Of a stretch of DNA of 64,000 nt, positions 45,525 to 59,410 are shown piece by piece. Under the pieces are notes generated by a model that was not told the origin of the DNA, did not search any database, and worked only from the letters and a program-made list of their open reading frames with translations. Source of the stretch: Hoeflea prorocentri. Its GTDB lineage: Bacteria; Pseudomonadota; Alphaproteobacteria; Rhizobiales; Rhizobiaceae. The stretch spans positions 4,340,001 through 4,404,000 of the forward strand of contig NZ_JAPJZI010000001.1 of the NCBI RefSeq assembly GCF_027944115.1, given 5' to 3'. Each line of letters opens with the position of its first letter. The first letter of the stretch is position 1. The translations under genes were made by a program, and so were the position numbers.

Positions 45525-46225
45525 GCGTCTTCCTCGGCCTCGGCGCGGGCGGTATTGGCCAATGACTGATCAAGCTGTTTTTGTTCCGGGCGGACAAACT
45601 CGCCGCTGCCGGCGTCCATGACCCATAATTCGCCTGTCGAAATGTCGAACCAGGCCCCATGAAGATCGAGCTTGCCGCGCTTTTCGAGGATCCGAACGCA
45701 GGGAAATGTCCGCAGGTTGGTTATGGAATTGCGGACCGAGACCCGTTCCAGCGCGGTCTGCCGTTCCTGCCCGTCGGCGAGTGCACCGGACTGCATCTCC
45801 GATTTGACCGGATCAAGCAGGCTCATCCACTGGCCGATAAAATCGCCCGGCGAAAGAGGGGTCGCGCCGGGATTGAGCGCTGCGGATATGCCGCCGCAGC
45901 GGCCGTGTCCCATCACCACGATATCGCGCACGCGAAGAGACTGGACGGCAAATTCCAGTGCCGCCGATGTGGAATGAAAGGATCCGTCCGGCGCATAGGG
46001 CGGAACGAGGTTGGCGACATTGCGCACAACAAACAGTTCTCCGGGCCCGGCATTGAATATGGTTTCGGGAGCCGCGCGCGAGTCGCAGCATGCGACGATC
46101 AGTGTTTTGGGCTTTTGCCCCCTGTCGGCAAGTTCCCTGTATCGGTCACTTTCTTCGCCGTAACGGCCGGACATGAACTGGCTGTATCCGGCAAGCAGCC
46201 GGTCTGGAAAGGTGTTCATGGTCAT
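45521..46225 (-). CDS. Beta-class carbonic anhydrase
   Basis: The enzyme interconverts CO2 and bicarbonate with a Zn ion. The 234-residue protein has the CxDSR ligand motif (Cys46, Asp48, Arg50) and HGRC (His107, Cys110). It continues with the conserved AALEFAVQSL and GGI segments around them. Its ATG overlaps the pyridoxal kinase stop by four bases (ATGA); an internal ATG two codons later is also possible. The pdxY-carbonic anhydrase pair is, from memory, a common Hyphomicrobiales arrangement. Confidence 0.95.
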   Translation of the reverse strand: MTMNTFPDRLLAGYSQFMSGRYGEESDRYRELADRGQKPKTLIVACCDSRAAPETIFNAGPGELFVVRNVANLVPPYAPDGSFHSTSAALEFAVQSLRVRDIVVMGHGRCGGISAALNPGATPLSPGDFIGQWMSLLDPVKSEMQSGALADGQERQTALERVSVRNSITNLRTFPCVRILEKRGKLDLHGAWFDISTGELWVMDAGSGEFVRPEQKQLDQSLANTARAEAEEDA

Positions 46226-47127
46226 TGTCTCCCTATAACCCGCTTACGCGGGGAGGCCGGCCTCATCAGCCGGCGCATATTAACGAGAGCAAAGGGGCGC
46301 TTCAGACTGTCCGCCTCGCTCTCCAGCGCAAGTTCGTCGGCGCCGCGCTTGACCGTGCGGGCCAGGATTTCAAATACGGAGGCGCTTGCCGACTGCAGCG
46401 ATTTTTCGTCTGCCTTGCCGTTCATGACATGGGCGAGCATCAGCGAGGCCAGGAGATCGCCCGGTCCGTTCGGCGGTCTGGCGATTTCCTGATGTTCGGC
46501 CATCAGGGCGTCCTGCGCCGTTACAAGAATGTTTCCGGTACATCCGGACATCATGGGCAGGGCGGATGTGACAACCACGCGCTTGGGGCCAAGAGACCGC
46601 GCCGCCTCGACGATCTGCATGTTGTCGTCAAAGGTTGTGGAGCAGATCCATTCAAGTTCAAAACGGTTGGGCGTGGTCATCGTGGCAAGCGGGATCAGAC
46701 GGTCGCGGACCTCTGAAGCCGTTTCCTCCGGCACATAAAGGCCATTTGCATCCCCGATGACCGGATCGCAGACATAGTGGGCGTCCGGGTTCTGGTCCCG
46801 GATCGTTTTGACGAGCCGCTCGATTGCCGGCGCCTGTCTGGCGTCACCGAGATATCCGGAGAGCACGGCGCCGACTTCTCCTATCCAGGGTGCACGGCAA
46901 AGATCGTCGACAATGGCGGCAAAATCCTCGATCGGCAGCATCGAACGGGTCGCCGGTCCATGCCCCGGGTGCCAGGGCAGGACGACAGTGGGCAGGGCCC
47001 AGACCGGATGGCCAAGCGTTTCCAGCGCAAAGACCGCCGCACGGTTACCGACCGAGCCCCGGACCACGTGGCTCGATATGACCAGGACCGCTCCCTGATC
47101 CGGTTTGTGATGCGTGTCGACGGACAT
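46222..47127 (-). CDS. pdxY: Pyridoxal kinase
   Basis: PdxY phosphorylates pyridoxal to PLP in the B6 salvage pathway. The 301-residue protein has the ribokinase-like fold with VISSHVVRGSVGNRAAVFAL near residue 16, the YVCDPVIGD region near 120, and TPNRFELEWI near 151. The catalytic-loop motif GPGDLLASLMLAH lies near 240 (Asp is the base). ATG 47127 with GAGGAA is chosen over an open frame from 47223 that overlaps the upstream gene. Operon with the small membrane-anchored gene upstream (eight bases) and carbonic anhydrase downstream. Confidence 0.93.
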   Translation of the reverse strand: MSVDTHHKPDQGAVLVISSHVVRGSVGNRAAVFALETLGHPVWALPTVVLPWHPGHGPATRSMLPIEDFAAIVDDLCRAPWIGEVGAVLSGYLGDARQAPAIERLVKTIRDQNPDAHYVCDPVIGDANGLYVPEETASEVRDRLIPLATMTTPNRFELEWICSTTFDDNMQIVEAARSLGPKRVVVTSALPMMSGCTGNILVTAQDALMAEHQEIARPPNGPGDLLASLMLAHVMNGKADEKSLQSASASVFEILARTVKRGADELALESEADSLKRPFALVNMRRLMRPASPRKRVIGRQ

Positions 47128-47135
47128 GAGCTTCC

Positions 47136-47384
47136 TCAGTTGCTCTGAAGGAAATTGGCCAACCAGATAACGAGGGCGACGAGTGCGATCAAGGAAAGAA
47201 TTCGCCCGATACGTGTTCCCCAAACCTCAATCTTATCCGAAGGATCGACATCCTTTGCCATGAAGTGACCGGTTACCGTCTTCGACTTGGTCTTGAGTTT
47301 CGGCGCGTGGAGGAGATTGCCTTCGTCCTTGAGTTTTTCAAGGTCCTGCAGCGCCTTGCGAGACTGATCGTCGTGGTCTGCCAT
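47136..47384 (-). CDS. Small C-terminally membrane-anchored protein, unrecognised
   Basis: The 82-residue protein has a charged, soluble N-terminal part with EKLKDEGNLLHAPKLKTKSK-type residues and one C-terminal hydrophobic segment (residues about 60-78). This makes it a likely tail-anchored or single-pass protein. I know no function for it. It lies eight bases before pdxY and on the same strand, so it appears to be the first gene of the pdxY-carbonic anhydrase operon. Confidence 0.75.
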   Translation of the reverse strand: MADHDDQSRKALQDLEKLKDEGNLLHAPKLKTKSKTVTGHFMAKDVDPSDKIEVWGTRIGRILSLIALVALVIWLANFLQSN

Positions 47385-48410: not shown

Positions 48411-48791
48411 CTATAGCGCGCCCTCCTCCTCGAGCACTTTGCGGGCGATACGAAAACACTCCAGCGCCTGCGGTACACCGCAATAGATGCCGACCACGTG
48501 GATGATCGCTCTTATCTCTTCCAGCGACACCCCGTTGTTGCGGGCTCCACGGCAGTGAATTTCCCATTCATGCATCTTGCCGAGCGCGCCGATCATCGCG
48601 AGGTTCATCATCGAACGTGTCTTCGGGTCGATCGTCTCGTCGCCCCAGCCAAAGCCCCAGCACCACTCTGTCATGGCCTCCTGAAAAGGCCGGGTAAACT
48701 CGTCGGCGGCTTCAAGATTGCGCTCAACATACTCCGCGCCCAGTGTGGCCTTGCGCTGCGAAAGACCCTTTTCAAACCGTTCCTTGTCCAT
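48411..48791 (-). CDS. Carboxymuconolactone decarboxylase (CMD/AhpD-like) family protein
   Basis: The 126-residue all-helical protein shows the CMD pattern: KTRSMMNLAMIGAL near residue 57, HEWEIHCRGARNNGVSLEEI near 74, and AIIHVVGIYCGVPQALECF near 94. It lacks the CxxC of AhpD peroxidoreductases, so it is closer to PcaC. The true PcaC reaction is not supported, because no protocatechuate genes are near. Its stop is 102 bases from the adjacent hydrolase, and its ATG abuts the ALDH stop without gap, so it is co-transcribed with ALDH and the Rieske gene. Confidence 0.88.
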   Translation of the reverse strand: MDKERFEKGLSQRKATLGAEYVERNLEAADEFTRPFQEAMTEWCWGFGWGDETIDPKTRSMMNLAMIGALGKMHEWEIHCRGARNNGVSLEEIRAIIHVVGIYCGVPQALECFRIARKVLEEEGAL

Positions 48792-50252
48792 CTAGCCGTT
48801 CCCCTTGAGCCTGATCGCGATATTCTTTGTCTGTACGTAGTTCCAAAGCGATTCGCGTCCCTTTTCTCGCCCATAACCCGATTTGCCGTAGCCGCCGAAC
48901 GGTGTTTCCACCCCACCCGCATACCATTCGTTGACGAAGACCTGCCCGGCCCGCAACCCGGCGGCCGCGCGGGTTGCCCGGTCGAGGTCGGCGGTGAAGA
49001 CGCCGCCGACGAGACCGTAGGGCGTGTTGTTGGCAATGGCGATGGCCTCGTCATCGTCGCTGAATTCCAGAATCGACAAAACCGGTCCGAAAACCTCGTT
49101 ACGGGCAATGTCCATTTCAGGGGAAACGTCGGTGATCACAGTTGGCTGCATGAAATAACCTGGCCGGTTCAGTGCATGGCCGCCGGTTGCCAGGGTTGCG
49201 CCCTGGCGCTCGGCATCGGCGCACATTCCAACCGCCCGTTCGCGTTGCCGCTCGGAAATCATCGCCCCCATATTGGGCCCGAAATCGGCCCGGTTCATGC
49301 CGTCGCCCACCGAGATGCTGTCAGCTAGCACCACAATGGCTTCGGTGAGCCTTCTGGCGATGCTACGATGGGCAATCACCCGAGACATTGCGGAGCAGAC
49401 CTGGCCGGCATTGAAATAAATGCCCCAACGCACATCGTCCATGAAGGCATCGATGTCGGCGTCGTCATGGACGATCGCTGCCGATTTGCCACCCAGTTCG
49501 AGAACGCAGGGGACGATATTTTCAGCTGCCGAGCGGGCAATTGAAATACCAGTGGGCACGGAACCGGTGAAAACGACCTGGTTGATATCCGGATGGGCCG
49601 CGAGCGCCGCTCCGGCCTCCTTTCCATGTCCGCAGACGATGTTCACGGCACCGGCGGGAAACCCCGCCGCCTCAGCCGCCTGGGCCATGAAGCCGTTTGT
49701 GAGCGGATCAAGTTCCGGCGGCTTGACGATGCAGGCGTTCCCTGTGGCAAGCGCTGCCGACAGCGATCGTGCGGTCATCTCCAGCGGGTAGTTCCACGGG
49801 ATGATCTGTGCCGACACGCCAAGTGGTTCGTGGACGGTGAAATCGAAATAGCCGGCGCCCAGCGGGATCGAACGACCCTCAACCGTTTCGGCCTGGTTGC
49901 CGTAATACTCGAAATAGCGGGCCGCTCCCTCGATTTCGAGGCGCGCTTCCCAAAGCGGCTTGCCGGATTCCTTTGTAAGAACCGGTGCAATCTCGTCGAT
50001 CCTCTCAAGTAGGTGATCGCCCATGGCGCGCACCATCCGGCCGCGCTCCACTGGTCTCAGATCGCTGAGCGCGCCGCTTTCATGGCATTGTCTTGCTGCC
50101 CCGACGGCCCGATCGATATCGTAGACATCAGCAAGCGCCTGTTCTGCAATGGTATCGCCTGTTGCCGGATCATTCACGGCAAGCCGCCCGGCCCCACCGT
50201 CGACAAACGCGCCATTTATATAGTTTTGCCAGTAGGGGCGACTGTCAGCCAT
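48792..50252 (-). CDS. NAD(P)-dependent aldehyde dehydrogenase
   Basis: The 486-residue ALDH has the structural N-terminal Rossmann part, IPWNYP with Asn154, ELGGKS with the general base Glu252, and FNAGQVCSA with nucleophile Cys286. A C-terminal FGGYGKSGYGREKG motif completes the core. Substrate specificity is not predictable; betaine-aldehyde or semialdehyde dehydrogenase types would fit the neighbourhood. It overlaps the Rieske gene by eight bases at 50245-50252 and is followed directly by the CMD gene, so it belongs to the leftward catabolic operon. Confidence 0.93.
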   Translation of the reverse strand: MADSRPYWQNYINGAFVDGGAGRLAVNDPATGDTIAEQALADVYDIDRAVGAARQCHESGALSDLRPVERGRMVRAMGDHLLERIDEIAPVLTKESGKPLWEARLEIEGAARYFEYYGNQAETVEGRSIPLGAGYFDFTVHEPLGVSAQIIPWNYPLEMTARSLSAALATGNACIVKPPELDPLTNGFMAQAAEAAGFPAGAVNIVCGHGKEAGAALAAHPDINQVVFTGSVPTGISIARSAAENIVPCVLELGGKSAAIVHDDADIDAFMDDVRWGIYFNAGQVCSAMSRVIAHRSIARRLTEAIVVLADSISVGDGMNRADFGPNMGAMISERQRERAVGMCADAERQGATLATGGHALNRPGYFMQPTVITDVSPEMDIARNEVFGPVLSILEFSDDDEAIAIANNTPYGLVGGVFTADLDRATRAAAGLRAGQVFVNEWYAGGVETPFGGYGKSGYGREKGRESLWNYVQTKNIAIRLKGNG

Positions 50253-51336
50253 CGGCGGCTTCTCTCATCCATTGCTGCAGGACATGGATCGAGTGTTCGG
50301 AATTCACACCCGACGCCGGATCAAGCACCAGCGGACCGGGCTTATAGCCGCGGCTTTTCAGCCCCTTATGGACCGCTTCAACGAGATGGATGTCCTCTTC
50401 GACCGTTGTCTGCCGGTCCTGGACGGCCAGTTGGCGGATGACGTCGGAATCCTCGCCGCCCTTGGTGTACCACCCGCGCCAGACAATTACATGTTCGCTG
50501 TCGATGGCACGCCAGTGATAGGTGTTGAGCACATTGCCGGGATAGACCTGGAATGAAAACATCGGCCAGAGAAACCACGAGGAGTAATCGCCGGCGTGGT
50601 CGTTTGCGGACAAATCCACCGAATAGGTCATCTTTTCGAGATTCTGGCACTGCGTTGTGTGCCTCAGGCAGTAACCCTGCGGCTGGATGTCATAGGTTTC
50701 GGGCTTGATCACGCCATTGGCGAAGGTGTGGTGATTGATCTTGCAGTGATAGCACTCCGAATAATTCTCAACCGAGACCTTCCAATTGCAGTTCTCGGGA
50801 ATCTCCACCCATTCTAACGGTTCGAGTTCGCCGTAATGCGGTACGAAGGCCGCCAGTTCCTCGCGTGCGCCGGGAAACCACTCGTCCATCGGCCGGGCGT
50901 CCGGGTCCAGGTTGACAAAGAGAAATCCGCAGAACTCCTCAACGGACACGGAGGTCAGGCAGATTTTTGTCCGGTCGAAACCGGGGACGGACTTGATATT
51001 CGGGCCCGAGCGCAATTCGCCCGTCAGTTCATAGGTCCAAGCATGGTACGGACAAACAATCAGCGGCGCGTTGCCCTGCCCGCTGACAAGCCTGTGGGCG
51101 CGATGCTGGCAGACATTGTAGTAGCCGCGAATTTCACCATCGCGGCCGCGAATGCAGAACAGGCTTTCGCCGGCGATGTCGCAGGTGATGAAGTCACCGG
51201 GTTTTTTGAGTGCAGAGGCATGGCCGGCAAACTGCCATGTGCGGGCAAGCAGCCCCTGGCATTCCGCACGGAATATGTCGGGATCTGTGTAGTAGCGCGC
51301 ATCAAGCGTTCGGATCATGTTGACAGGCGCATTCAT
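50245..51336 (-). CDS. Rieske non-heme iron oxygenase, quaternary-amine oxygenase type
   Basis: The 363-residue alpha-subunit has the Rieske [2Fe-2S] site Cys76-x-His78 and Cys95-x2-His98 and the mononuclear iron site His197, His202 and probably Asp315. The bridging residue three before His197 is Glu194 (YSECYH), not the Asp of aromatic-ring dioxygenases. A Glu bridge is reported for carnitine monooxygenase CntA and, as I recall, for relatives acting on glycine betaine, choline and stachydrine. An N-demethylase or C-N-cleaving oxygenase for a quaternary amine is therefore inferred. No reductase or ferredoxin gene lies nearby. Confidence 0.88.
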   Translation of the reverse strand: MNAPVNMIRTLDARYYTDPDIFRAECQGLLARTWQFAGHASALKKPGDFITCDIAGESLFCIRGRDGEIRGYYNVCQHRAHRLVSGQGNAPLIVCPYHAWTYELTGELRSGPNIKSVPGFDRTKICLTSVSVEEFCGFLFVNLDPDARPMDEWFPGAREELAAFVPHYGELEPLEWVEIPENCNWKVSVENYSECYHCKINHHTFANGVIKPETYDIQPQGYCLRHTTQCQNLEKMTYSVDLSANDHAGDYSSWFLWPMFSFQVYPGNVLNTYHWRAIDSEHVIVWRGWYTKGGEDSDVIRQLAVQDRQTTVEEDIHLVEAVHKGLKSRGYKPGPLVLDPASGVNSEHSIHVLQQWMREAADG

Positions 51337-51345
51337 CTCGACACC

Positions 51346-52251
51346 TCATTCCTCAGGTTGATAAATTCCCAGTGTGTGGCGGCGTTCATGAAATCGCTCG
51401 ATGTTGGAGATCACCTCGGGCGCTGCATCAGCGATGACAAAGGCCATCAGCGCTTCAAGCAATGCGATGTTGGACACCGATGAGGGGAAGAACTGAGGCG
51501 TATCGGCCGCCACGATAAATGCATGGTCGCTGCCGATCACGATCGGCGAGGCGGGGCTGTCCGAAAGGGCAATCACTGTCAGCCCCTGGCGGCGCGCCAG
51601 GCTGACAGCTTCGACAACTTCCGAGCGATAGGGTTTGCATGTCATGGCGATCAGCACGTCGCCCGGTCCGGCCCGCGCCAGATCGTCAATAGCGACGCTT
51701 CCAGGACGCGGGATCGCCTCGATGGTGTCGACCGCCATGTCCGCCAGATAGGTAAAGTTTCGGGCATTGGAGCTGTTGACGCCGACGCCAAGAACATAGG
51801 TCCTGCGTGAGGCGACGACCGCATCGGCTGCTGCTTTCATCGCCGTGTCATCGGTGGCGGCAAATGTTTCCTCGATATTGCGGATGGCGCTGGCCGCCAT
51901 GTCCGCATAAAGCCGGGCAAGTTCTCCGCCGCGCGCCAGCGATTGCAGCCAGCGGGCACGGTCGGGAAAGCTGACAACGCCTCGCCGGATCTCTTCACGG
52001 AACGGCTCGCGAAAATCGTCATACCCCTCAAAACCGACGGATCTGGCCATCCGCACAAAGGTGTTCGGCTTGACCCGCGCTGCCTCAGCGATTTCCCGAA
52101 TGGAGGAAACGCCCACATCATTGGGGTTTTCCAGCACATAGGCCGCAGCCTTGCGGGTTTCCGGCGTCAGCTCCTCCAGTGCGGCGGAAAGGTTTTTCAG
52201 AACCTTGGTCGGCGCCGAGTACTCTGGGTTTGGTACATTTATATTATTCAT
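51346..52251 (-). CDS. RpiR/MurR-family transcriptional regulator
   Basis: The 301-residue regulator has the N-terminal RpiR HTH (residues about 15-85, SSIREIAEAARVKPNTFVRM as recognition part). A C-terminal SIS sugar-isomerase-like domain follows at about 130-260, with VLGVGVNSSNA and IALSDSPASPI. SIS domains usually bind phosphosugars but some RpiR proteins control amine or amino-acid catabolism. It lies at the head of the leftward operon, 9 bases before the Rieske gene, and is divergent from the rightward operon. A palindrome in the shared 67-base gap is the likely binding site. Confidence 0.92.
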   Translation of the reverse strand: MNNINVPNPEYSAPTKVLKNLSAALEELTPETRKAAAYVLENPNDVGVSSIREIAEAARVKPNTFVRMARSVGFEGYDDFREPFREEIRRGVVSFPDRARWLQSLARGGELARLYADMAASAIRNIEETFAATDDTAMKAAADAVVASRRTYVLGVGVNSSNARNFTYLADMAVDTIEAIPRPGSVAIDDLARAGPGDVLIAMTCKPYRSEVVEAVSLARRQGLTVIALSDSPASPIVIGSDHAFIVAADTPQFFPSSVSNIALLEALMAFVIADAAPEVISNIERFHERRHTLGIYQPEE

Positions 52252-52262
52252 GGTTGACGAGA

Positions 52263-52274
52263 GTACATTTGTAC
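52263..52274. promoter_or_regulatory. Palindromic operator of the RpiR regulator
   Basis: GTACA-TT-TGTAC is a perfect five-base inverted repeat in the RpiR/flavoprotein gap. A half-conserved copy (GTACA-TT-TATAT) lies at 52233-52244 in the first RpiR codons, and GTACA-TT-TGTGC at 55995-56006 in the first enolase-like gene. Confidence 0.55.
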
Positions 52275-52318
52275 GATTAGCCTGTCCACATAATTGTCAG
52301 CCATTTGGGAAGAAACCT

Positions 52319-54796
52319 GTGACAGAGCTAAATCCGGTTTCAGTGCCTTCAACCGCGCGCGTGGTCATTGTTGGCGGCGGCGTGATGGGCTGCGGGCTCG
52401 CCTATCATCTGGCACATGAGGGCTGGACGGATGTCGTTCTGCTGGAAAAGGCGGAATTGACGTCGGGATCGACCTGGCATGCCGCCGGCCAGATCACCCA
52501 TTCGACGTCAAGCTTCGGGCTTGGCAAATGTGTTGATTACAATATCGGGCTTTATTCAGGGAAACTGGAGGCTGAGACCGGTCAATCGGTGACCTGGCAT
52601 GGCTGCGGATCGTTTCGGCTTGCCTATGACGAAGATGAAATGGACTGGCTACGCCATACGCTGAGTGTTGGGCGGTCTCTTGGTTTCAATATCGAGCTGG
52701 TCGGCAAAGAGCGGATCCGGGAACTCCATCCATTTTACAATCTCGACGGTGTGCTCGGCGCGCTGCATACGCCCGATGACGGTCATGCCGATCCGTCGGG
52801 CATCACGCAGGCGCTGGCGGCCGGCGCTCGCCAGTTGGGCGTGCGGATCATTCGCCGTTGCCGGGCAACCGATATCAAGCAGATGCCAAACGGAGAGTGG
52901 CGCGTCTCCTCGGAGCGCGGCGACATCACATGCGAGCATGTGGTCAATGCCGGAGGAACCTATGCGCGCCAGATGGGCGAGTGGAGCGGGCTGCAATTGC
53001 CCATGACCTCCATGACGCATCACTACCTTGTCACCGACACGGTTCCGGAATTTCTGGACCTGGAAAGAGAACTGCCGGTCATCAGGGACGACCAAAAGGT
53101 TTCCGGTTACATCCGCATGGAGCAGAAATCCGGCCTGATCGGTATCTATGAAAAGGAAAACCCGAACACCGTTTGGGAGGATCACTGCCCCTGGGAGGCG
53201 GAAAACGAGCTTTTCGAGGCCGATTATGACCGCATCATGCCGTGGCTGGAAAACGCCATGGAGCGTATGCCTGCTCTGGCGGAACTCGGTATCAAACGGG
53301 AGGTTCACGGCGCCATATCGCATCCGCCGGACGGCAATCCTTTGATTGGACCCGCGCCCGGTGCGCGAAATTACTGGTGCTGCTGCGGTACACAGATCGG
53401 TATCGGCTGGGGGCCGGGCCTGACACGCGAACTGGCGCGCTGGATGGTGCATGGTGCGGCGGATATCTCGATGCGGGATTACGACCCGTGCCGGTTTGGA
53501 GCCTATGCCGACAAAAAATGGCAGGTGACCAAGGCAAGGGAAGACTATTGCCTGAGGCACGAAATTCCGTTTCCGCATTTCAACCGACTGGCCGGCAGAC
53601 CTGTCAAACCCAGCCCTCTTTATGAGCGCCTCAAGGCAAGGGGTGCCGTTTATGAAGAAGTATACGGGCATGAACGGCCGCGCTGGTTTGCAAAGGACGG
53701 CGTCGCGCAAAAGGATCACTATTCCTTCAGGCGCACGGCCGTTGACGACATGATCGAACAGGAGGTCCGAGCGGTCCGTGGTTCCGTCGGAATCATGGAT
53801 ATTTCCGCCTTCACCAAGGTAGAAGTCAGCGGCGCCGGCGCTGAAGCTCTGCTCGACCGTCTGTCGGCAAACAGGCTGCCGCAAAAAACCGGTGGCATCG
53901 TGCTCAGCCATCTTTTGAACCGACGCGGGCGTATCGAGCTCGAGCTGACAATCGTTAAGCTGGCCAAGGAACGTTATTACCTGGTTTGTGCGGCATTCTT
54001 CGAACAGCGGTTGCTTGATCATCTGGAGCGTCACCGCACCGGGGGGAACGTCCTGATCAACAAGCTGTCGGACGATTGGGCGGCGATCTCCTTGCAGGGG
54101 CCCAGATCGCGGGCAGTTCTGGCTGAAAACACCACGGTTCCGTTGGACAATGCGCATTTCCGCTGGCTCACAGCACAGGAAATCGACATTGCAGGCCGCC
54201 CGATATGGGCATTCCGTATGTCCTATTGCGGCGAGCTCGGCTGGGAACTCCATGGACCGCGTGACCATATCCTTGCTGTTTATGATGCGCTTTGGGAATC
54301 GGGCAAGGCTTTCGGTATCGCCAATTACGGCTCGTTCGCGATGAATGCGATGCGGCTTGAAAAAATGTTCAAGGGCGCCGGTGAATTGACCAATGAGGTA
54401 ACGCTGCGGGAAGCCGACGTCATGCGATTTGTCAAAATGGACAAGGGCGACTTCATCGGCAAGGAGGCGACGCAGCAAGGACTTGACGGCGACATGCCGT
54501 GGATTTGCACTTATCTCTCTATCGAACCTGATGGCGTTGTGGACGGGCATGGCGGAGAAGCCGTGTTGCGCGGCGGCGACGTAGTGGGCTCGACCACCTC
54601 CGTTGCCTACGGTCCGACGGTCGGCAAAATCCTTGCTTTTGCCTATATCAAGCCGGATGCCGCCGTGCCCGGCACCGCGCTGACCGTGCTGATTGCGGGT
54701 GAACCACGAAACGCCGTCGTACTTGGTGAGCCGGCTTATGATTCTCAAAACCAACGTCCGCGCACGGAAGCGGCCGTTTCGGAGGCAGCCGAATGA
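52319..54796 (+). CDS. Dimethylglycine/sarcosine dehydrogenase-like flavoprotein fused to a GcvT domain
   Basis: The 825-residue protein has an FAD Rossmann motif VGGGVMG (residues 18-24) and STWHAAG with His54, the covalent-flavin position of dimethylglycine and sarcosine dehydrogenases. The C-terminal half (about 440-800) is an aminomethyltransferase/GcvT fold that in relatives binds tetrahydrofolate and accepts the formaldehyde unit. The likely reaction is oxidative demethylation of an N-methylated amino acid. The start is GTG 52319 with GGGAAG seven bases upstream; an open frame from 52151 overlaps the divergent regulator. It heads the rightward operon and overlaps the next gene by four bases. 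Confidence 0.88.
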   Translation: MTELNPVSVPSTARVVIVGGGVMGCGLAYHLAHEGWTDVVLLEKAELTSGSTWHAAGQITHSTSSFGLGKCVDYNIGLYSGKLEAETGQSVTWHGCGSFRLAYDEDEMDWLRHTLSVGRSLGFNIELVGKERIRELHPFYNLDGVLGALHTPDDGHADPSGITQALAAGARQLGVRIIRRCRATDIKQMPNGEWRVSSERGDITCEHVVNAGGTYARQMGEWSGLQLPMTSMTHHYLVTDTVPEFLDLERELPVIRDDQKVSGYIRMEQKSGLIGIYEKENPNTVWEDHCPWEAENELFEADYDRIMPWLENAMERMPALAELGIKREVHGAISHPPDGNPLIGPAPGARNYWCCCGTQIGIGWGPGLTRELARWMVHGAADISMRDYDPCRFGAYADKKWQVTKAREDYCLRHEIPFPHFNRLAGRPVKPSPLYERLKARGAVYEEVYGHERPRWFAKDGVAQKDHYSFRRTAVDDMIEQEVRAVRGSVGIMDISAFTKVEVSGAGAEALLDRLSANRLPQKTGGIVLSHLLNRRGRIELELTIVKLAKERYYLVCAAFFEQRLLDHLERHRTGGNVLINKLSDDWAAISLQGPRSRAVLAENTTVPLDNAHFRWLTAQEIDIAGRPIWAFRMSYCGELGWELHGPRDHILAVYDALWESGKAFGIANYGSFAMNAMRLEKMFKGAGELTNEVTLREADVMRFVKMDKGDFIGKEATQQGLDGDMPWICTYLSIEPDGVVDGHGGEAVLRGGDVVGSTTSVAYGPTVGKILAFAYIKPDAAVPGTALTVLIAGEPRNAVVLGEPAYDSQNQRPRTEAAVSEAAE

Positions 54797-55893
54797 GCGC
54801 GATCCCTGCAGCAATGAATGCTTTTGTTCTCACCGGCCACGGCGAAATGGACATGTTGCAATACCGGACAGACTGGCCAGTCCCGGAGCCGGCGGAAGGC
54901 GAGGTCCTGATCCGGGTTCACGCCTGCGGCCTGAACAATACCGACGTCAATACCCGCACCGGCTGGTACTCAAAAACTGTGACTGCGGCGACGACCGGAA
55001 GCGGTTTCGATGATGTCGGCGAAGAGGACCCGTCCTGGGGCGGGGCGCCCATATCCTTTCCGCGGATACAGGGCGCCGATGTCGCCGGTACGGTGGTCGC
55101 GGCGGGCAAGAAGGCTGATCCTTCACTCATTGGCCGGCGCGTGTTGGTCGAAACGTGGATCCGCGATCCCGAAGACCCATTGAACATGAGCAAATGCCGC
55201 TATCTCGGCTCGGAGCTCGATGGCGGTTTTGCGGACTATCTCGCCGTTCCCGACCGGGCGGTGTTTCCAATTGAATGCGACCTCAGTCACGCAGAACTTG
55301 CGACATTCGCCACCTCCTGGGTGACGGCGGAAAACATGCTCAACCGGGCAAAGGTCACCGATGGCGATACGGTTCTTATACCGGGTGCCTCCGGCGGTGT
55401 CGGGTCGGCTCTTGTCCAGCTTGCCGCCCGCCGTGGCGCGCGCACGATCGCCATGGCCGGTACCGACAAACATGAACAGGTTGCAGCACTTGGATGTGAC
55501 GCCGTTCTTGCACGGGCGCCTGCTGATTTGAAGGCAGCGCTTCGTGAGGCCATCGGTTCGGCCTCGGTCAGCGTTGTGGCCGATGTTGTCGGCGGACCGC
55601 AATTTCCATCGCTGATCGATGTCCTGGAGCGCGGCGGCCGTTATACGGTCGCGGGTGCCATCGCCGGACCGCTTGTCGAGTTGGATCTTCGCACGCTTTA
55701 TCTGCGTGATCTCACATTCACCGGTGCGACGGTCGTCCCTCCGGGCACGTTTGGCGATCTTGTCGGTTATATCGAACGCGGCGAAGTCAGGCCGGTTCTC
55801 GCTCAAACCTTCCCGCTGGAACAACTGCACGACGCGCAACGCGCCTTTATCGAGAAGAAGCATATTGGCAATATCGTCGTGACCATGGACTAG
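54793..55893 (+). CDS. MDR-family alcohol dehydrogenase/quinone oxidoreductase-like protein
   Basis: The 366-residue medium-chain dehydrogenase has a GroES-like N-terminal half and the nucleotide motif GASGGVGS (198-205). The typical GHE zinc motif of alcohol dehydrogenases is replaced by QGADVAG (93-99), so a zinc-independent reductase or an atypical metal site is possible. An Asn/Thr/Asp-rich GLNNTD precedes it. It overlaps the flavoprotein gene by ATGA and is followed by the first enolase-like gene after 5 bases. Substrate unknown. Confidence 0.88.
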   Translation: MSAIPAAMNAFVLTGHGEMDMLQYRTDWPVPEPAEGEVLIRVHACGLNNTDVNTRTGWYSKTVTAATTGSGFDDVGEEDPSWGGAPISFPRIQGADVAGTVVAAGKKADPSLIGRRVLVETWIRDPEDPLNMSKCRYLGSELDGGFADYLAVPDRAVFPIECDLSHAELATFATSWVTAENMLNRAKVTDGDTVLIPGASGGVGSALVQLAARRGARTIAMAGTDKHEQVAALGCDAVLARAPADLKAALREAIGSASVSVVADVVGGPQFPSLIDVLERGGRYTVAGAIAGPLVELDLRTLYLRDLTFTGATVVPPGTFGDLVGYIERGEVRPVLAQTFPLEQLHDAQRAFIEKKHIGNIVVTMD

Positions 55894-55898
55894 CCGTC

Positions 55899-57005
55899 AT
55901 GAAGATATCCCGCATATCGGTCTGGCAGGTGACGCTTCCGCTGAGCGTTCCATACAGGCTTTCCGGCGGGCGGCTCCAATTTGACGAGCTGGACAGTACA
56001 TTTGTGCGCATCGACACGGATGAAGGCGTTTGCGGGTGGGGAGAAGCCTGCCCCTGGGGGCACACGTATCTGCCGGCGCACGGTGCGGGCGTACGCGCCG
56101 GGCTGGAACTTCTTGCACCGGCGCTGCTCGGACAGGATCCGCGGGCACTCGATGCACTAAACCGCCGGATGGATGCGACGCTTCCGGGGCATGCCTATGC
56201 CAAATCGGCACTCGACATAGCCTGTTGGGATATTCTCGGCAAAGCAGCCGGACTTCCATTGTGGATGCTGCTCGGTGGCGACCTGGCCGACCCGGTGGCA
56301 ATCAACTCTTCCATATCGACCGGTACGCCTGAAGAAATGGTCACGCTGATCCGGCAGGCGCGCGAAAAGGGCTATCGTACCCATTCGGCCAAAATCGGCG
56401 GTAGCGATGTCACGCTGGACATTGCCCGGATCGACGCAATCTCGGCCGATCTGCCCGAAGGAGAACATGTCACCTATGATGTGAACCGGGCCTGGACGCC
56501 GGGGACGGCCTTGATGGTCCTTAACTCTGTCATATCCCGGGACTGGGTGGAGCAGCCCTGCGAATCCGTGGAGGCATGCGCGCATGTCGCCAGACGGGTC
56601 GCCAATCCGATTATGCTCGATGAATGCCTGCATTCGTTTCAGGATCACCTCAACGCCTGGAACCTGGGCGCCTGTGAGGGTGCAAAGGTCAAACCAAACC
56701 GGCTGGGCGGCCTGACGAAGGCAAGGCAGGTGCGTGATTTCGGTGTCAGCGTCGGCTGGCAGATGCATATTGAAGATGTCGGCGGTTCGGCCTTGGCCGA
56801 CACCGCCGCGATCCACCTGGCGAGCGCCACGCCAAAGGCCAACAGGCTGGCAAGCTGGCTTTGCCATGATCATCTCGCCCTGGACCCGGTGCCGCAACAG
56901 GGCGCGCGCAACAAAGGCGGTTTTGTGGTCCCGCCATCGCAGCCGGGCCTTGGCGTCGAGCCCGTCGCCGACCTGATCGGTGAGCCGGTCGCAGTTTACG
57001 GGTAG
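55899..57005 (+). CDS. Enolase-superfamily (mandelate racemase/muconate lactonizing) enzyme 1
   Basis: This 368-residue protein has the two-domain enolase-superfamily layout. Metal ligands fit Asp194 (YDVN), Glu219 (VEQP) and Asp241 (LDE). Catalytic Lys165 (SAKIGG) and Lys265 (KVKPNRLGG) face each other, which fits racemisation or epimerisation. A Trp at position 320 (ASWLCHD) corresponds in number to the cation-pi Trp I recall for hydroxyproline-betaine epimerase HpbD. Dehydration or other superfamily reactions remain possible. It starts 5 bases after the MDR gene and its stop is 4 bases before enzyme 2. Confidence 0.88.
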   Translation: MKISRISVWQVTLPLSVPYRLSGGRLQFDELDSTFVRIDTDEGVCGWGEACPWGHTYLPAHGAGVRAGLELLAPALLGQDPRALDALNRRMDATLPGHAYAKSALDIACWDILGKAAGLPLWMLLGGDLADPVAINSSISTGTPEEMVTLIRQAREKGYRTHSAKIGGSDVTLDIARIDAISADLPEGEHVTYDVNRAWTPGTALMVLNSVISRDWVEQPCESVEACAHVARRVANPIMLDECLHSFQDHLNAWNLGACEGAKVKPNRLGGLTKARQVRDFGVSVGWQMHIEDVGGSALADTAAIHLASATPKANRLASWLCHDHLALDPVPQQGARNKGGFVVPPSQPGLGVEPVADLIGEPVAVYG

Positions 57006-57009
57006 GGCG

Positions 57010-58113
57010 ATGAAGATTACCCGGATAACAATCTGGAAAGTCCCACTTGAGAGCCACACACCCTATCTCATGGCGTCGGGAAAAGCCTGCAAACAAGTCG
57101 ACACCATGGTGGTCCGACTCGAGACGAATGGCGGGGTCGACGGGTGGGGCGAGGTATGCCCGATTCCGCACTATCTACCGGCCTATGCGGGCGGTGTAGC
57201 ACCGGCGATTGAAGAAATGGCGCCTGTCGTCCTTGGAAGCGATCCTGTTGGTCCCGATGCAGTGATGGAACGGCTGGACGGTTTTCTGATCGGGCACGAT
57301 TATGCAAAATCGCCGCTGGACATTGCATTGTGGGATATCACCGCGAAGGTTGCCGGACTACCTCTATATACTGTTTTAGGCGGCCGGATTGCCGAGAAGC
57401 TTCCGCTCTATCACTCGATTACCTGCATTGCAGCCGATGAAATGGTGCGGATTGCGAAAGAAGCCTTTGCGTCCGGAATTCGGCAGTTCCAGGTCAAGCT
57501 GGGCGCCGATGACGACTGGCAGGCCGATGTTGAGCGGCTGGTCAAGGTGCGTGAGGCCGTTGGAGACGGGCCGCTGGTCTATGGGGACTGGAACTGCGGT
57601 GCGCGGCGGCTTGATGCCATAAGGGTCGGTCGAGCGGTTGCACATCTTGATATCATGCTGGAGCAGCCCTGCCGGACACTGAATGATTGTGCCGCCGTTA
57701 AAACCGCAACAGGCCTTCCGATGAAAATCGACGAAGGCGCGCATGACGTCGCTTCCCTGCTTGAGGCCCACCGTCTCGGCTGCCTCGATGCGGTGGCGGT
57801 GAAGCTCTCCAAATTCGGCGGGCTTGGAGCCTGTCGAAGGGCGCGGGATCTGTGCGAGCATCTGGGTGCCCTGATGTGTGTCGAAGATACCTGGGGCTCA
57901 GACATTGCGACAGCAGCGTCGCTCCATCTTGGTGCGACCTGCCGCCGGGGATCGCTCATGAACGTCTGTGATCTGTCCGGTTACGTCTCTCCGCGCATTG
58001 CACCGGACTGCCCGGTGCGTGATGGCGGCCATATCGCGCCACCGAGCGGGCCGGGGCTTGGGATCACGCCCGATCCGGACAGGCTGGGTTCGCCGGTTGC
58101 GGTCATTGATTGA
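57010..58113 (+). CDS. Enolase-superfamily (mandelate racemase/muconate lactonizing) enzyme 2
   Basis: The 367-residue paralogue of the preceding gene has Lys163 (QVKLGA), Asp193 (GDWN), Glu219 (LEQP), Asp241 (IDEG) and Lys265 (VKLSKFGG). The same racemase-type Lys pair and metal triad are therefore present. Position 320 is Cys, not Trp, so its substrate pocket differs. ATG 57010 is chosen; an ATG at 56980 lies inside the previous gene. Two such enzymes in tandem may handle two stereocentres, two substrates, or epimerisation and dehydration. Confidence 0.88.
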   Translation: MKITRITIWKVPLESHTPYLMASGKACKQVDTMVVRLETNGGVDGWGEVCPIPHYLPAYAGGVAPAIEEMAPVVLGSDPVGPDAVMERLDGFLIGHDYAKSPLDIALWDITAKVAGLPLYTVLGGRIAEKLPLYHSITCIAADEMVRIAKEAFASGIRQFQVKLGADDDWQADVERLVKVREAVGDGPLVYGDWNCGARRLDAIRVGRAVAHLDIMLEQPCRTLNDCAAVKTATGLPMKIDEGAHDVASLLEAHRLGCLDAVAVKLSKFGGLGACRRARDLCEHLGALMCVEDTWGSDIATAASLHLGATCRRGSLMNVCDLSGYVSPRIAPDCPVRDGGHIAPPSGPGLGITPDPDRLGSPVAVID

Positions 58114-58126
58114 GGAAACACAGCCG

Positions 58127-59410
58127 ATGAGCAAATCACAGCAGGACTGGATTGAACGTGCGCGGGCAGTGTTGCCTGCCGGTGGTTTCGGTAATTTTTC
58201 TCCCGATATCGTGATCCGGGAGGGCAAGGGGTCGCGGGTCTGGGATGAAGACGGCAATGAATATGTCGATTATCTGATCGGCTCCGGGCCGATGCTGCTT
58301 GGCCACGGCCATGCGGAGGTGCTGGATGCGGTCAACGAACAGATTGGCAAGGGCATGACCTTTTTCGCCAACAACGCACGCGGCATCGAACTTGCCGAGG
58401 AAATCTGCCGGGCCGTCGATTGTGCGCAAAGGGTTCGTTACGTCTCCTCGGGAGGTGAGGCGGACATGTACGCCATGCGGCTCGCGCGCGCCTTTACCGG
58501 CCGCGAGAAGATCATCAAATTCGAGGGCGGCTATCATGGGATGTCGGCGGAGGCGCAGATGAGCCTTGCGCCCTCAAGGCTGATCAATTTCCCTCTGGCG
58601 GTTCCCGATTCAGCCGGTATTCCGGCAAGTGTGCGCGACAGTGTGCTGGTCGCGCCGTTCAATGATATCGGATTTGTGGAGTCGCTGATTGCCGAACAGG
58701 GGCCGGAGATTGCCGCGATTATCGTCGAGCCGCTGCAGCGTATCGTTCCACCGGAACCGGGGTTTCTTGAGGCGCTTAGAACTCTTTGCTCGGCCAACGG
58801 CATCGTTTTGATTTTCGACGAGATCGTTACCGGTTTCCGCCTCGCCTATGGCGGCGCGCAGCAACATTACGGCGTCACGCCCGACCTTTGCACGCTCGGC
58901 AAGATCATTGGCGGCGGATTTGCCCTCGCCGCGATTGCGGGCCGCAGCGACATCATGGATCATTTCGACAAGGAGGCCGTCGGCGAAGAGGGTTTCCTCA
59001 TGCAGCTTGGAACGCTGAGCGGCAATCCGGTTGCTGCCGTGGCGGGTCTGAAGACGATGGAAATCCTGCGCCGTCCGGGTGCTTATGAGCAATTGCGTGC
59101 GACCGGTGAAACGCTCATGGCAGCACTCAAACGGTCTTTGGGCAAGGCCGGCATCGATTACAGGATCGTTGGAGATGCGACGCTGTTCGATGTCGTGTTT
59201 ACGGATGCCGACGTACGCGATTACCGCAATGTGTTCAAGGCAGATGCGACGCGCAACGCCCTTTTCAATGCCGCGTTGCGGGAAAAGGGCATCTTCAAAT
59301 CGCCGGGCAAGCTTTATCCTTCCCTGGCGATCACCGAGGACGATATCGCCCGGACGATCGAGGCGATCGAATTCGCGGCCGGACACGTCAGCATGGAACC
59401 GGTTGCCTGA
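58127..59410 (+). CDS. Class III aminotransferase (glutamate-1-semialdehyde aminomutase-like)
   Basis: The 427-residue PLP enzyme has VSSGGEADMYAMRLARAFTG (106-125), GGYHG near 134-138, the PLP-phosphate-contacting Asp231 (FDEIVTGFR), and Lys259 (TLGKIIGGG) that forms the Schiff base. It resembles GSAM-like aminotransferases used in amine and beta-amino-acid catabolism. A housekeeping hemL is not implied because this gene sits in the catabolic operon. ATG 58127 with GAGGAA nine bases upstream is chosen over an open upstream frame. It is the last gene of the rightward operon, 13 bases after enzyme 2. Confidence 0.9.
   Translation: MSKSQQDWIERARAVLPAGGFGNFSPDIVIREGKGSRVWDEDGNEYVDYLIGSGPMLLGHGHAEVLDAVNEQIGKGMTFFANNARGIELAEEICRAVDCAQRVRYVSSGGEADMYAMRLARAFTGREKIIKFEGGYHGMSAEAQMSLAPSRLINFPLAVPDSAGIPASVRDSVLVAPFNDIGFVESLIAEQGPEIAAIIVEPLQRIVPPEPGFLEALRTLCSANGIVLIFDEIVTGFRLAYGGAQQHYGVTPDLCTLGKIIGGGFALAAIAGRSDIMDHFDKEAVGEEGFLMQLGTLSGNPVAAVAGLKTMEILRRPGAYEQLRATGETLMAALKRSLGKAGIDYRIVGDATLFDVVFTDADVRDYRNVFKADATRNALFNAALREKGIFKSPGKLYPSLAITEDDIARTIEAIEFAAGHVSMEPVA

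Follow-up and report, generated by a model that had tools for sequence, protein, structure and literature searches.

Within a 64,000-nucleotide stretch of the Hoeflea prorocentri genome (contig 1, positions 4,340,001-4,404,000, within a genome of 5.04 Mb; hereafter the window), nine genes in two divergent operons appear to encode a locally regulated pathway that breaks down a betaine, here a quaternary ammonium compound with a carboxylate, through N-demethylation, a reading to which we assign a probability of roughly 60% on the basis of protein families and gene linkage. Enolase-superfamily enzymes require a carboxylate substrate that has a proton on the alpha carbon, Rieske oxygenases and flavoproteins that join a dimethylglycine dehydrogenase (DMGDH) module to a GcvT domain act on N-methyl groups, and class III aminotransferases act on a primary amine; their combination in one locus points to a quaternary amine that bears a carboxylate. 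Demethylation is suggested by a Rieske oxygenase most similar to carnitine monooxygenase and encoded across an operator from the DMGDH-GcvT protein, and by a GFA formaldehyde-activating family gene in 9 of 85 related loci. An earlier note on this DNA had proposed a betaine-type locus that combines Rieske and DMGDH-GcvT steps under a common RpiR regulator, a proposal that the families and linkage support, and its nine genes were recovered as open reading frames (ORFs) at the same coordinates and on the same strands, with Pfam families in agreement. The features are as follows, in window coordinates:

48411..48791, minus strand: CMD, a PcaC-like carboxymuconolactone decarboxylase family protein of 126 amino acids (PF02627)
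48792..50252, minus strand: aldehyde dehydrogenase, ALDH (PF00171)
50245..51336, minus strand: Rieske oxygenase, quaternary-amine type (Pfam Rieske and Ring_hydroxyl_A)
51346..52251, minus strand: RpiR-family regulator (Pfam HTH_6 and SIS)
52233..52244, no strand: upstream operator copy, partial match GTACATTTATAT, 8 of 10 (palindrome scan)
52263..52274, no strand: palindromic operator GTACATTTGTAC, 10 of 10 (palindrome scan), presumed RpiR site
52319..54796, plus strand: DMGDH-like flavoprotein with GcvT folate domain (Pfam DAO, FAO_M, GCV_T and GCV_T_C)
54793..55893, plus strand: MDR-family reductase, quinone oxidoreductase/enoyl reductase-like (ADH_N/ADH_zinc_N)
55899..57005, plus strand: enolase superfamily type A (MR_MLE_N/C; 71% identical to PDB 2qdd)
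57010..58113, plus strand: enolase superfamily type B (MR_MLE_N/C; 33-37% identical to 2rdx, 4e8g and 4mgg)
58127..59410, plus strand: class III aminotransferase (PF00202)

All nine proteins scored above the Pfam cut-offs for their families, and the starts of the aminotransferase and enolase B were corrected to approximately ATG 58127 and 57010, respectively. Against narrower models, CMD reached 125.6 bits with TIGR02425 (cut-off 155.7), and ALDH was closest to betaine-aldehyde and aminobutyraldehyde dehydrogenase models, all under cut-off (TIGR01804, 423.3 of 668.6 bits). The ALDH and Rieske ORFs overlap (50245 versus 50252).

The gene set, linkage, enolase types, enzyme modules and operator conservation were established computationally. 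Genome contigs were scanned with the flavoprotein and the best 80 of 129 relatives were kept, which together with four plasmid copies and the window gave 85 loci. Presence of the nine locus proteins and of five extra neighbours was scored by tblastn instead of ORF clustering, as antisense ORFs made the latter miss copies in GC-rich DNA; contigs ending less than 7 kb to the right (n = 59 retained) or 6.5 kb to the left (n = 63) of the flavoprotein were left out of the respective counts, 47 loci had both arms, and association p values derive from nine uncorrected tests. As the set was kept across the 85 loci, it forms a conserved unit beyond chance, and the loss of linkage that the earlier note had named as damaging to its proposal was not observed. 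The most constant flavoprotein partner was the Rieske oxygenase (61/63), accompanied in the left arm by RpiR (58/63), CMD (41/63) and ALDH (32/63), and the right arm carried MDR in 41, at least one enolase in 56 and a window-type aminotransferase in 53 of 59 loci (57/59 when every class III aminotransferase is counted). According to record titles, hosts were alpha- and gammaproteobacteria, many of them belonging to marine genera, plus a Mesorhizobium plasmid from Lotus. A flavoprotein ortholog 75-83% identical occurred in 5 of 61 genomes besides the window's own, with the next level down at 50%, so the locus is patchy across relatives and probably mobile. Two divergent relatives of the locus (L144 and L186, flavoprotein approximately 55% identical) contained a cupin, MDR and Rieske gene, with several enolases in L186, and possibly represent a sister pathway.

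An arylmalonate-decarboxylase-like gene and a sulfotransferase-like gene recurred in the same 20/85 loci, and a cupin in 17/85. Once assigned genes were masked, the remaining neighbours, loosely clustered and named by reading, were led by two ABC-ATPase-like groups in 8 and 5 of 84 loci, the next groups occurring in 3. An annotated ABC transporter set directly follows the aminotransferase on a plasmid of Roseovarius sp. THAF8 (L089, 14882-18675), offering a lead to the substrate.

The flavoprotein shares the DAO, FAO_M, GCV_T and GCV_T_C architecture of dimethylglycine dehydrogenase and N,N-dimethylglycine oxidase, matching mitochondrial DMGDH (5l46) over nearly its whole length at 534.6 bits and 1pj5 at 269.6 bits. 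It also carries their GSTWH motif, found in 84/85 copies, the histidine of which we take to be the covalent flavin adenine dinucleotide residue. The 84 other members of its group are at least 70% identical, and the four further DMGDH-like matches in the window's genome are at most 41% identical to it. In the Rieske protein, a Glu before CYHC, presumably the bridging position, is common to carnitine monooxygenase, its closest solved relative, and occurs in 73/75 copies. Alcohol dehydrogenases carry zinc-ligand motifs at positions where the MDR proteins read GLNN (41/50 full-length copies) and GAD or GGD (42/50), copies outside these counts being unread by the pattern used. Because these motifs are absent, the sequences suggest an enoyl-type reductase of activated double bonds and not an alcohol dehydrogenase, which refines the previous assignment to an MDR enzyme while leaving the family unchanged. 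The aminotransferase lies near glutamate-1-semialdehyde aminomutase and beta-amino-acid aminotransferases (NF000818, 393.6 of 398 bits; PDB 2cfb, 306.6 bits).

We compared 135 full-length locus enolases with six solved ones, leaving partial enolases untyped, and distinguished type A (like 2qdd, n = 14), type B (without a close solved relative, n = 54), type C (like 3eez, n = 38) and type D (like 2rdx, n = 23); six fell outside these types (four 'other', two like 2ps2). The solved representatives of types A, C and D were deposited under generic names and presumably originate from Ruegeria pomeroyi and Roseovarius nubinhibens. Every A-D member retained the catalytic Lys/Lys pair together with the metal-ligating Asp, Glu and Asp. 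At the column of the HpbD tryptophan, which we assume to bind the quaternary nitrogen, all type A (14/14) and type C (38/38) members have Trp, whilst all type B (54/54) have Cys and all type D (23/23) Thr. The two window enolases, described in the earlier note as paralogous, are both of the MR/MLE type, but at 37% identity and belonging to different, separately conserved types they do not reflect a recent duplication.

Loci carried one to four enolases, and among 72 typed loci type C was found in 38, type A in 14 and neither in 20, with type B alone in 15. Types A and C never occurred together (0/59 loci, Fisher p = 1.2e-4), and in a genus mate (L009) C + B replaces A + B at the same position, the other genes being 75-89% identical; they therefore appear to substitute for each other in a single role. 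MDR was present in 31/34 loci with type A or C versus 3/13 without (p = 1.2e-5).

Between the divergent RpiR and flavoprotein operons lies a conserved palindrome, GTACAWWTGTAC. The best site matched at least 8/10 positions in 64/74 loci, compared with 6.3% of mononucleotide shuffles, and where a locus had at least two sites they were spaced 30 bp apart in 29/32. The 5.04 Mb genome contains two perfect sites (six for the reversed control pattern) and no match to the longer form of the motif; the second perfect site (contig 1, 3518704) adjoins two ORFs without a Pfam match and was taken as chance instead of a regulon member. A further copy matching 9 of 10 positions lies at window 55996-56007, within the type A enolase coding sequence. 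Scanning the sequence between the two operons for sigma-70 promoters gave none (0.1 expected), and we claim no promoter there. RpiR may bind the palindrome and control both operons. The flavoprotein frame is open from 52151, and translation probably starts at GTG 52319, which has GGGAAG upstream, since the conserved operator falls inside the open frame ahead of this codon.

The recurrent cupin matched Pfam DMSP_lyase, where DMSP is dimethylsulfoniopropionate, and a profile of the 17 cupins matched five distinct DMSP lyases among solved structures at E < 1e-67, the sole other match being at 1.7e-6; three of the five carry the name DddQ. A weaker match in L079 (E 2.7e-13) was dropped, as three of the ORFs then in the profile had been wrongly extended upstream. 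MDR was present in 16 of the 17 cupin loci (not L031), and a typed A or C enolase likewise in 16 (the enolase of L042 is cut short); in two-arm loci, the cupin accompanied both MDR and type A/C in 13/13 (p = 0.009 each). Its association with enolase D gave an uncorrected p of 0.017, and those with the GFA and arylmalonate-decarboxylase-like genes were not significant (p = 0.08 and 0.07, respectively). In relatives including L098, L051 and L074 the MDR ortholog precedes the cupin, and loci described here have the cupin and enolases after MDR. The available parts of an earlier study link dddQ of R. pomeroyi (SPO1593, SPO1596) and R. nubinhibens (ISM_14095, dddQ1/dddQ2) to a gene of what that paper calls the MDR028 family (PMC3338564), SPO1596 being DddQ (PMC5395565). 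The MDR + dddQ pairing is thus common to those clusters and the loci described here, with the window itself lacking dddQ; for those clusters, the same parts of the source describe the MDR linkage and not a Rieske, flavoprotein, enolase or aminotransferase gene (PMC3338564).

Cupins of DddQ grade were found in 42/295 genomes of one family, at 51 places; the 42 stretches read (L140, L141 and L150-L189) cover 48 of these, with G689, G578 and G698 contig 139 left out, and some genomes occur in both this set and the locus set (L039/L150, L072/L151 and L066/L181). Eighteen stretches lay in the locus, having at least three locus genes, including L176 and L180 (both short), L186 (divergent flavoprotein) and L169 (without MDR), a share that may be too high as the profile was built from in-locus cupins. 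Of the 24 outside the locus, 7 had at least one locus-grade neighbour (L152, L158, L172, L173, L174, L179 and L184) and 17 had none. An MttB-like trimethylamine methyltransferase gene occurred in three of the outside stretches (L155, L178 and L179; Pfam match for the L178 copy), representing a further family that demethylates quaternary amines. A class-wide scan detected the cupin in 34/385 genomes at E<=1e-20, and of ten sites only L140 lay in the locus and L144 in its divergent version, with eight in neither, so the DddQ link is weaker outside the one family.

Within the window's genome, no DddQ cupin matched the profile at E<=1e-20 (8 of 42 first-look candidates scored), and the window is therefore a DddQ-less A + B version of the locus. 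A 146-amino-acid cupin from this genome was rejected as DddQ, since it covers 78 of 162 Pfam model positions and lies in a different enolase cluster on contig 2 (L097, 2094-12269). There, a separate enolase is found with ALDH, ABC transporter, GntR/FadR-type regulator, small cupin and GMC-oxidoreductase-like genes, in what looks like another catabolic cluster (families other than the enolase and cupin were assigned by reading the sequence). The earlier note mentions neither the link to DddQ nor the operator, and it did not type the enolases.

From the protein families we infer a pathway, including each of its reactions, their order and the pairing of RpiR with its site. The type A (or C) enolase would abstract the proton next to the betaine carboxylate and thereby epimerise or beta-eliminate; where an alkene forms, the MDR reductase would saturate it, and in some relatives the DddQ cupin would perform related alpha-proton/beta-elimination chemistry. 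The Rieske enzyme would then remove the first N-methyl group as formaldehyde and the flavoprotein-GcvT protein would transfer the next methyl groups to tetrahydrofolate, after which enolase B might act on the alpha-carbon of the demethylated intermediate. The class III aminotransferase could convert the resulting primary amine to an aldehyde, ALDH the aldehyde to an acid, and the CMD protein, or the arylmalonate-decarboxylase-like protein in relatives, could decarboxylate that acid, with RpiR governing both operons from the paired palindromes. The earlier note put racemisation or epimerisation first; racemisation as the first step is unproven, given that racemase, epimerase or dehydratase activity is conceivable for these enolase types.

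For the substrate class we tentatively suggest a 2-substituted beta-ammonio carboxylate of the beta-alanine-betaine type, by analogy with the beta-onium propionate on which DddQ acts and considering the relatives of the aminotransferase and the decarboxylase-like gene in 20/85 loci. Many algae make the betaine lipid diacylglyceryl hydroxymethyl-N,N,N-trimethyl-beta-alanine (DGTA), whose head group we propose as the most attractive natural candidate; our literature search, insofar as it touched bacterial catabolism of this head group, turned up none. It is a speculative and rather improbable extension that 2-substituted beta-ammonio acids, notably the DGTA head group, have in this locus their first bacterial pathway and that DddQ has in it its ancestral home, with DMSP cleavage a side activity on a sulfur mimic of the nitrogen compound that would be its natural substrate.

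Several observations weigh against this interpretation or parts of it. DddQ and the decarboxylase-like gene are absent from the window, hence arguments drawn from them concern relatives only, and the decarboxylase-like assignment is weak (29.4 bits, cut-off 25.9). The role given to the HpbD-column Trp is our assumption. As many as 24/42 DddQ stretches lay outside the locus although the profile was built from in-locus cupins, and two cupin loci (L031 and L169) lacked MDR. No transporter-like gene turned up in more than 8 of 84 loci; ALDH and CMD are each missing from many left arms, so that variation in the lower pathway must be assumed; and the Lotus Mesorhizobium plasmid does not suggest an exclusively marine algal compound. 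DddQ also has a demonstrated, DMSP-induced role in vivo, and high internal DMSP has been suggested to make its millimolar Km workable (PMC5395565). The sulfur role of DddQ is therefore real, which weighs against regarding DMSP cleavage as accidental.

In the membership tests run, the locus fell outside hydroxyproline-betaine, glycine-betaine and DMSP clusters. Of the alternatives, an unlikely one that nevertheless fares best is catabolism of proline betaine or hydroxyproline betaine, in which an enolase would racemise the betaine and the Rieske enzyme and flavoprotein would demethylate it to (hydroxy)proline. HpbD-type clusters include Rieske demethylation, both window enolases belong to the HpbD subgroup (B versus 4e8g, 224 bits), and the best NCBIfam match of both is the cis-3-hydroxy-L-proline dehydratase model NF043002; enolase B is also 37% identical to 4mgg, which we take to be such a dehydratase. 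The betaine-column Trp is kept in types A and C, but not in B or D. Opposing this, the NF043002 scores (317.4 and 301.7 bits) remain under the cut-off of 500, and identities to HpbD of 33% for A and 35% for B fell short in the orthology test. A proline or hydroxyproline gene is absent from the nine locus proteins and nine flanking ORFs, and the aminotransferase, ALDH and MDR, which along with DMGDH-GcvT and RpiR the window adds to the HpbD-type arrangement, would be unexplained. In line with the earlier note, which allowed for a different substrate, the compound is probably not proline betaine.

Slightly less probable is a carnitine/gamma-butyrobetaine route, whereby an enolase would dehydrate carnitine to crotonobetaine, MDR would reduce it to gamma-butyrobetaine, demethylation would give gamma-aminobutyrate, and the aminotransferase and ALDH would lead to succinate. 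The affinities of the Rieske protein and ALDH, the class III aminotransferase and an MDR without zinc motifs all fit. Carnitine has no alpha stereocentre, however, so one to four alpha-carbon enolases would be unneeded, and neither the loci with enolase B alone nor the arylmalonate-decarboxylase-like partner would be explained.

On a par with the carnitine route, and similarly improbable, is that the Rieske enzyme works like carnitine monooxygenase and breaks a C-N bond, which would yield trimethylamine together with an aldehyde for the neighbouring ALDH, with the flavoprotein demethylating something else. The shared Glu and the overlap of the ALDH and Rieske genes agree with this, but DMGDH-GcvT and the Rieske gene flank the same operator, the Rieske gene is the flavoprotein's most constant partner and the GFA gene suggests formaldehyde. 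In contrast to carnitine monooxygenase and the glycine betaine monooxygenase GbcA, the window protein has no adjacent reductase partner. GbcA belongs to the same Rieske family, with NF058607 at 148.4 of 670 bits over residues 11-210, well below its cut-off. A homarine operon was discarded as an answer, as the literature search gave no matching gene set. Least probable of all is a DMSP or sulfonium locus defined by DddQ, the other genes processing DMSP or related compounds: R. pomeroyi dddQ mutants produced 97% less dimethyl sulfide and dddQ was induced by DMSP (PMC5395565), but DddQ is not seen in 68/85 loci, the window among them (some of these loci are truncated), the chemistry of the Rieske, DMGDH-GcvT and aminotransferase enzymes is that of nitrogen, and the dddQ-linked MDR ISM_14095, when supplied to an E. 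coli yhdH mutant, did not relieve its sensitivity to acrylate (PMC3338564).

By Pfam, none of the nine flanking ORFs (43.5-48.3 and 59.5-62.1 kb) encodes a transporter, a partner reductase or a protein of proline metabolism, in line with the earlier note. Pfam assignments there included LysR, aldo/keto reductase, carbonic anhydrase, alpha/beta hydrolase, LemA, two TPM-domain proteins and a second CMD-family protein, and a pyridoxal/phosphomethylpyrimidine-kinase-type ORF (PF08543) lies two genes past the locus at window 46222-47223. Three PF00970 reductase-type domains occur in the window's genome, approximately 160 kb or more from the locus. The earlier description of the locus as undescribed holds in part: the dddQ-MDR linkage already appears in PMC3338564, and the literature search found neither a description of the whole set nor an assigned substrate, which does not establish that none exists.

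In marine metagenomes, the gene for DddQ ranks with the most abundant DMSP lyase genes of bacteria, yet the enzyme has a millimolar affinity for DMSP (PMC5395565), and it is reported to be more efficient with dimethylsulfoxonium propionate (PMC10686828). Many DddQ genes are now placed in a conserved nitrogen-betaine-type locus beside enolases that match three solved structures without an assigned role, a specific and testable context that predicts that DddQ and these enolases share one substrate class. Should that substrate be a betaine-lipid head group, this would open up a part of the marine carbon and nitrogen cycles that has so far gone unstudied.

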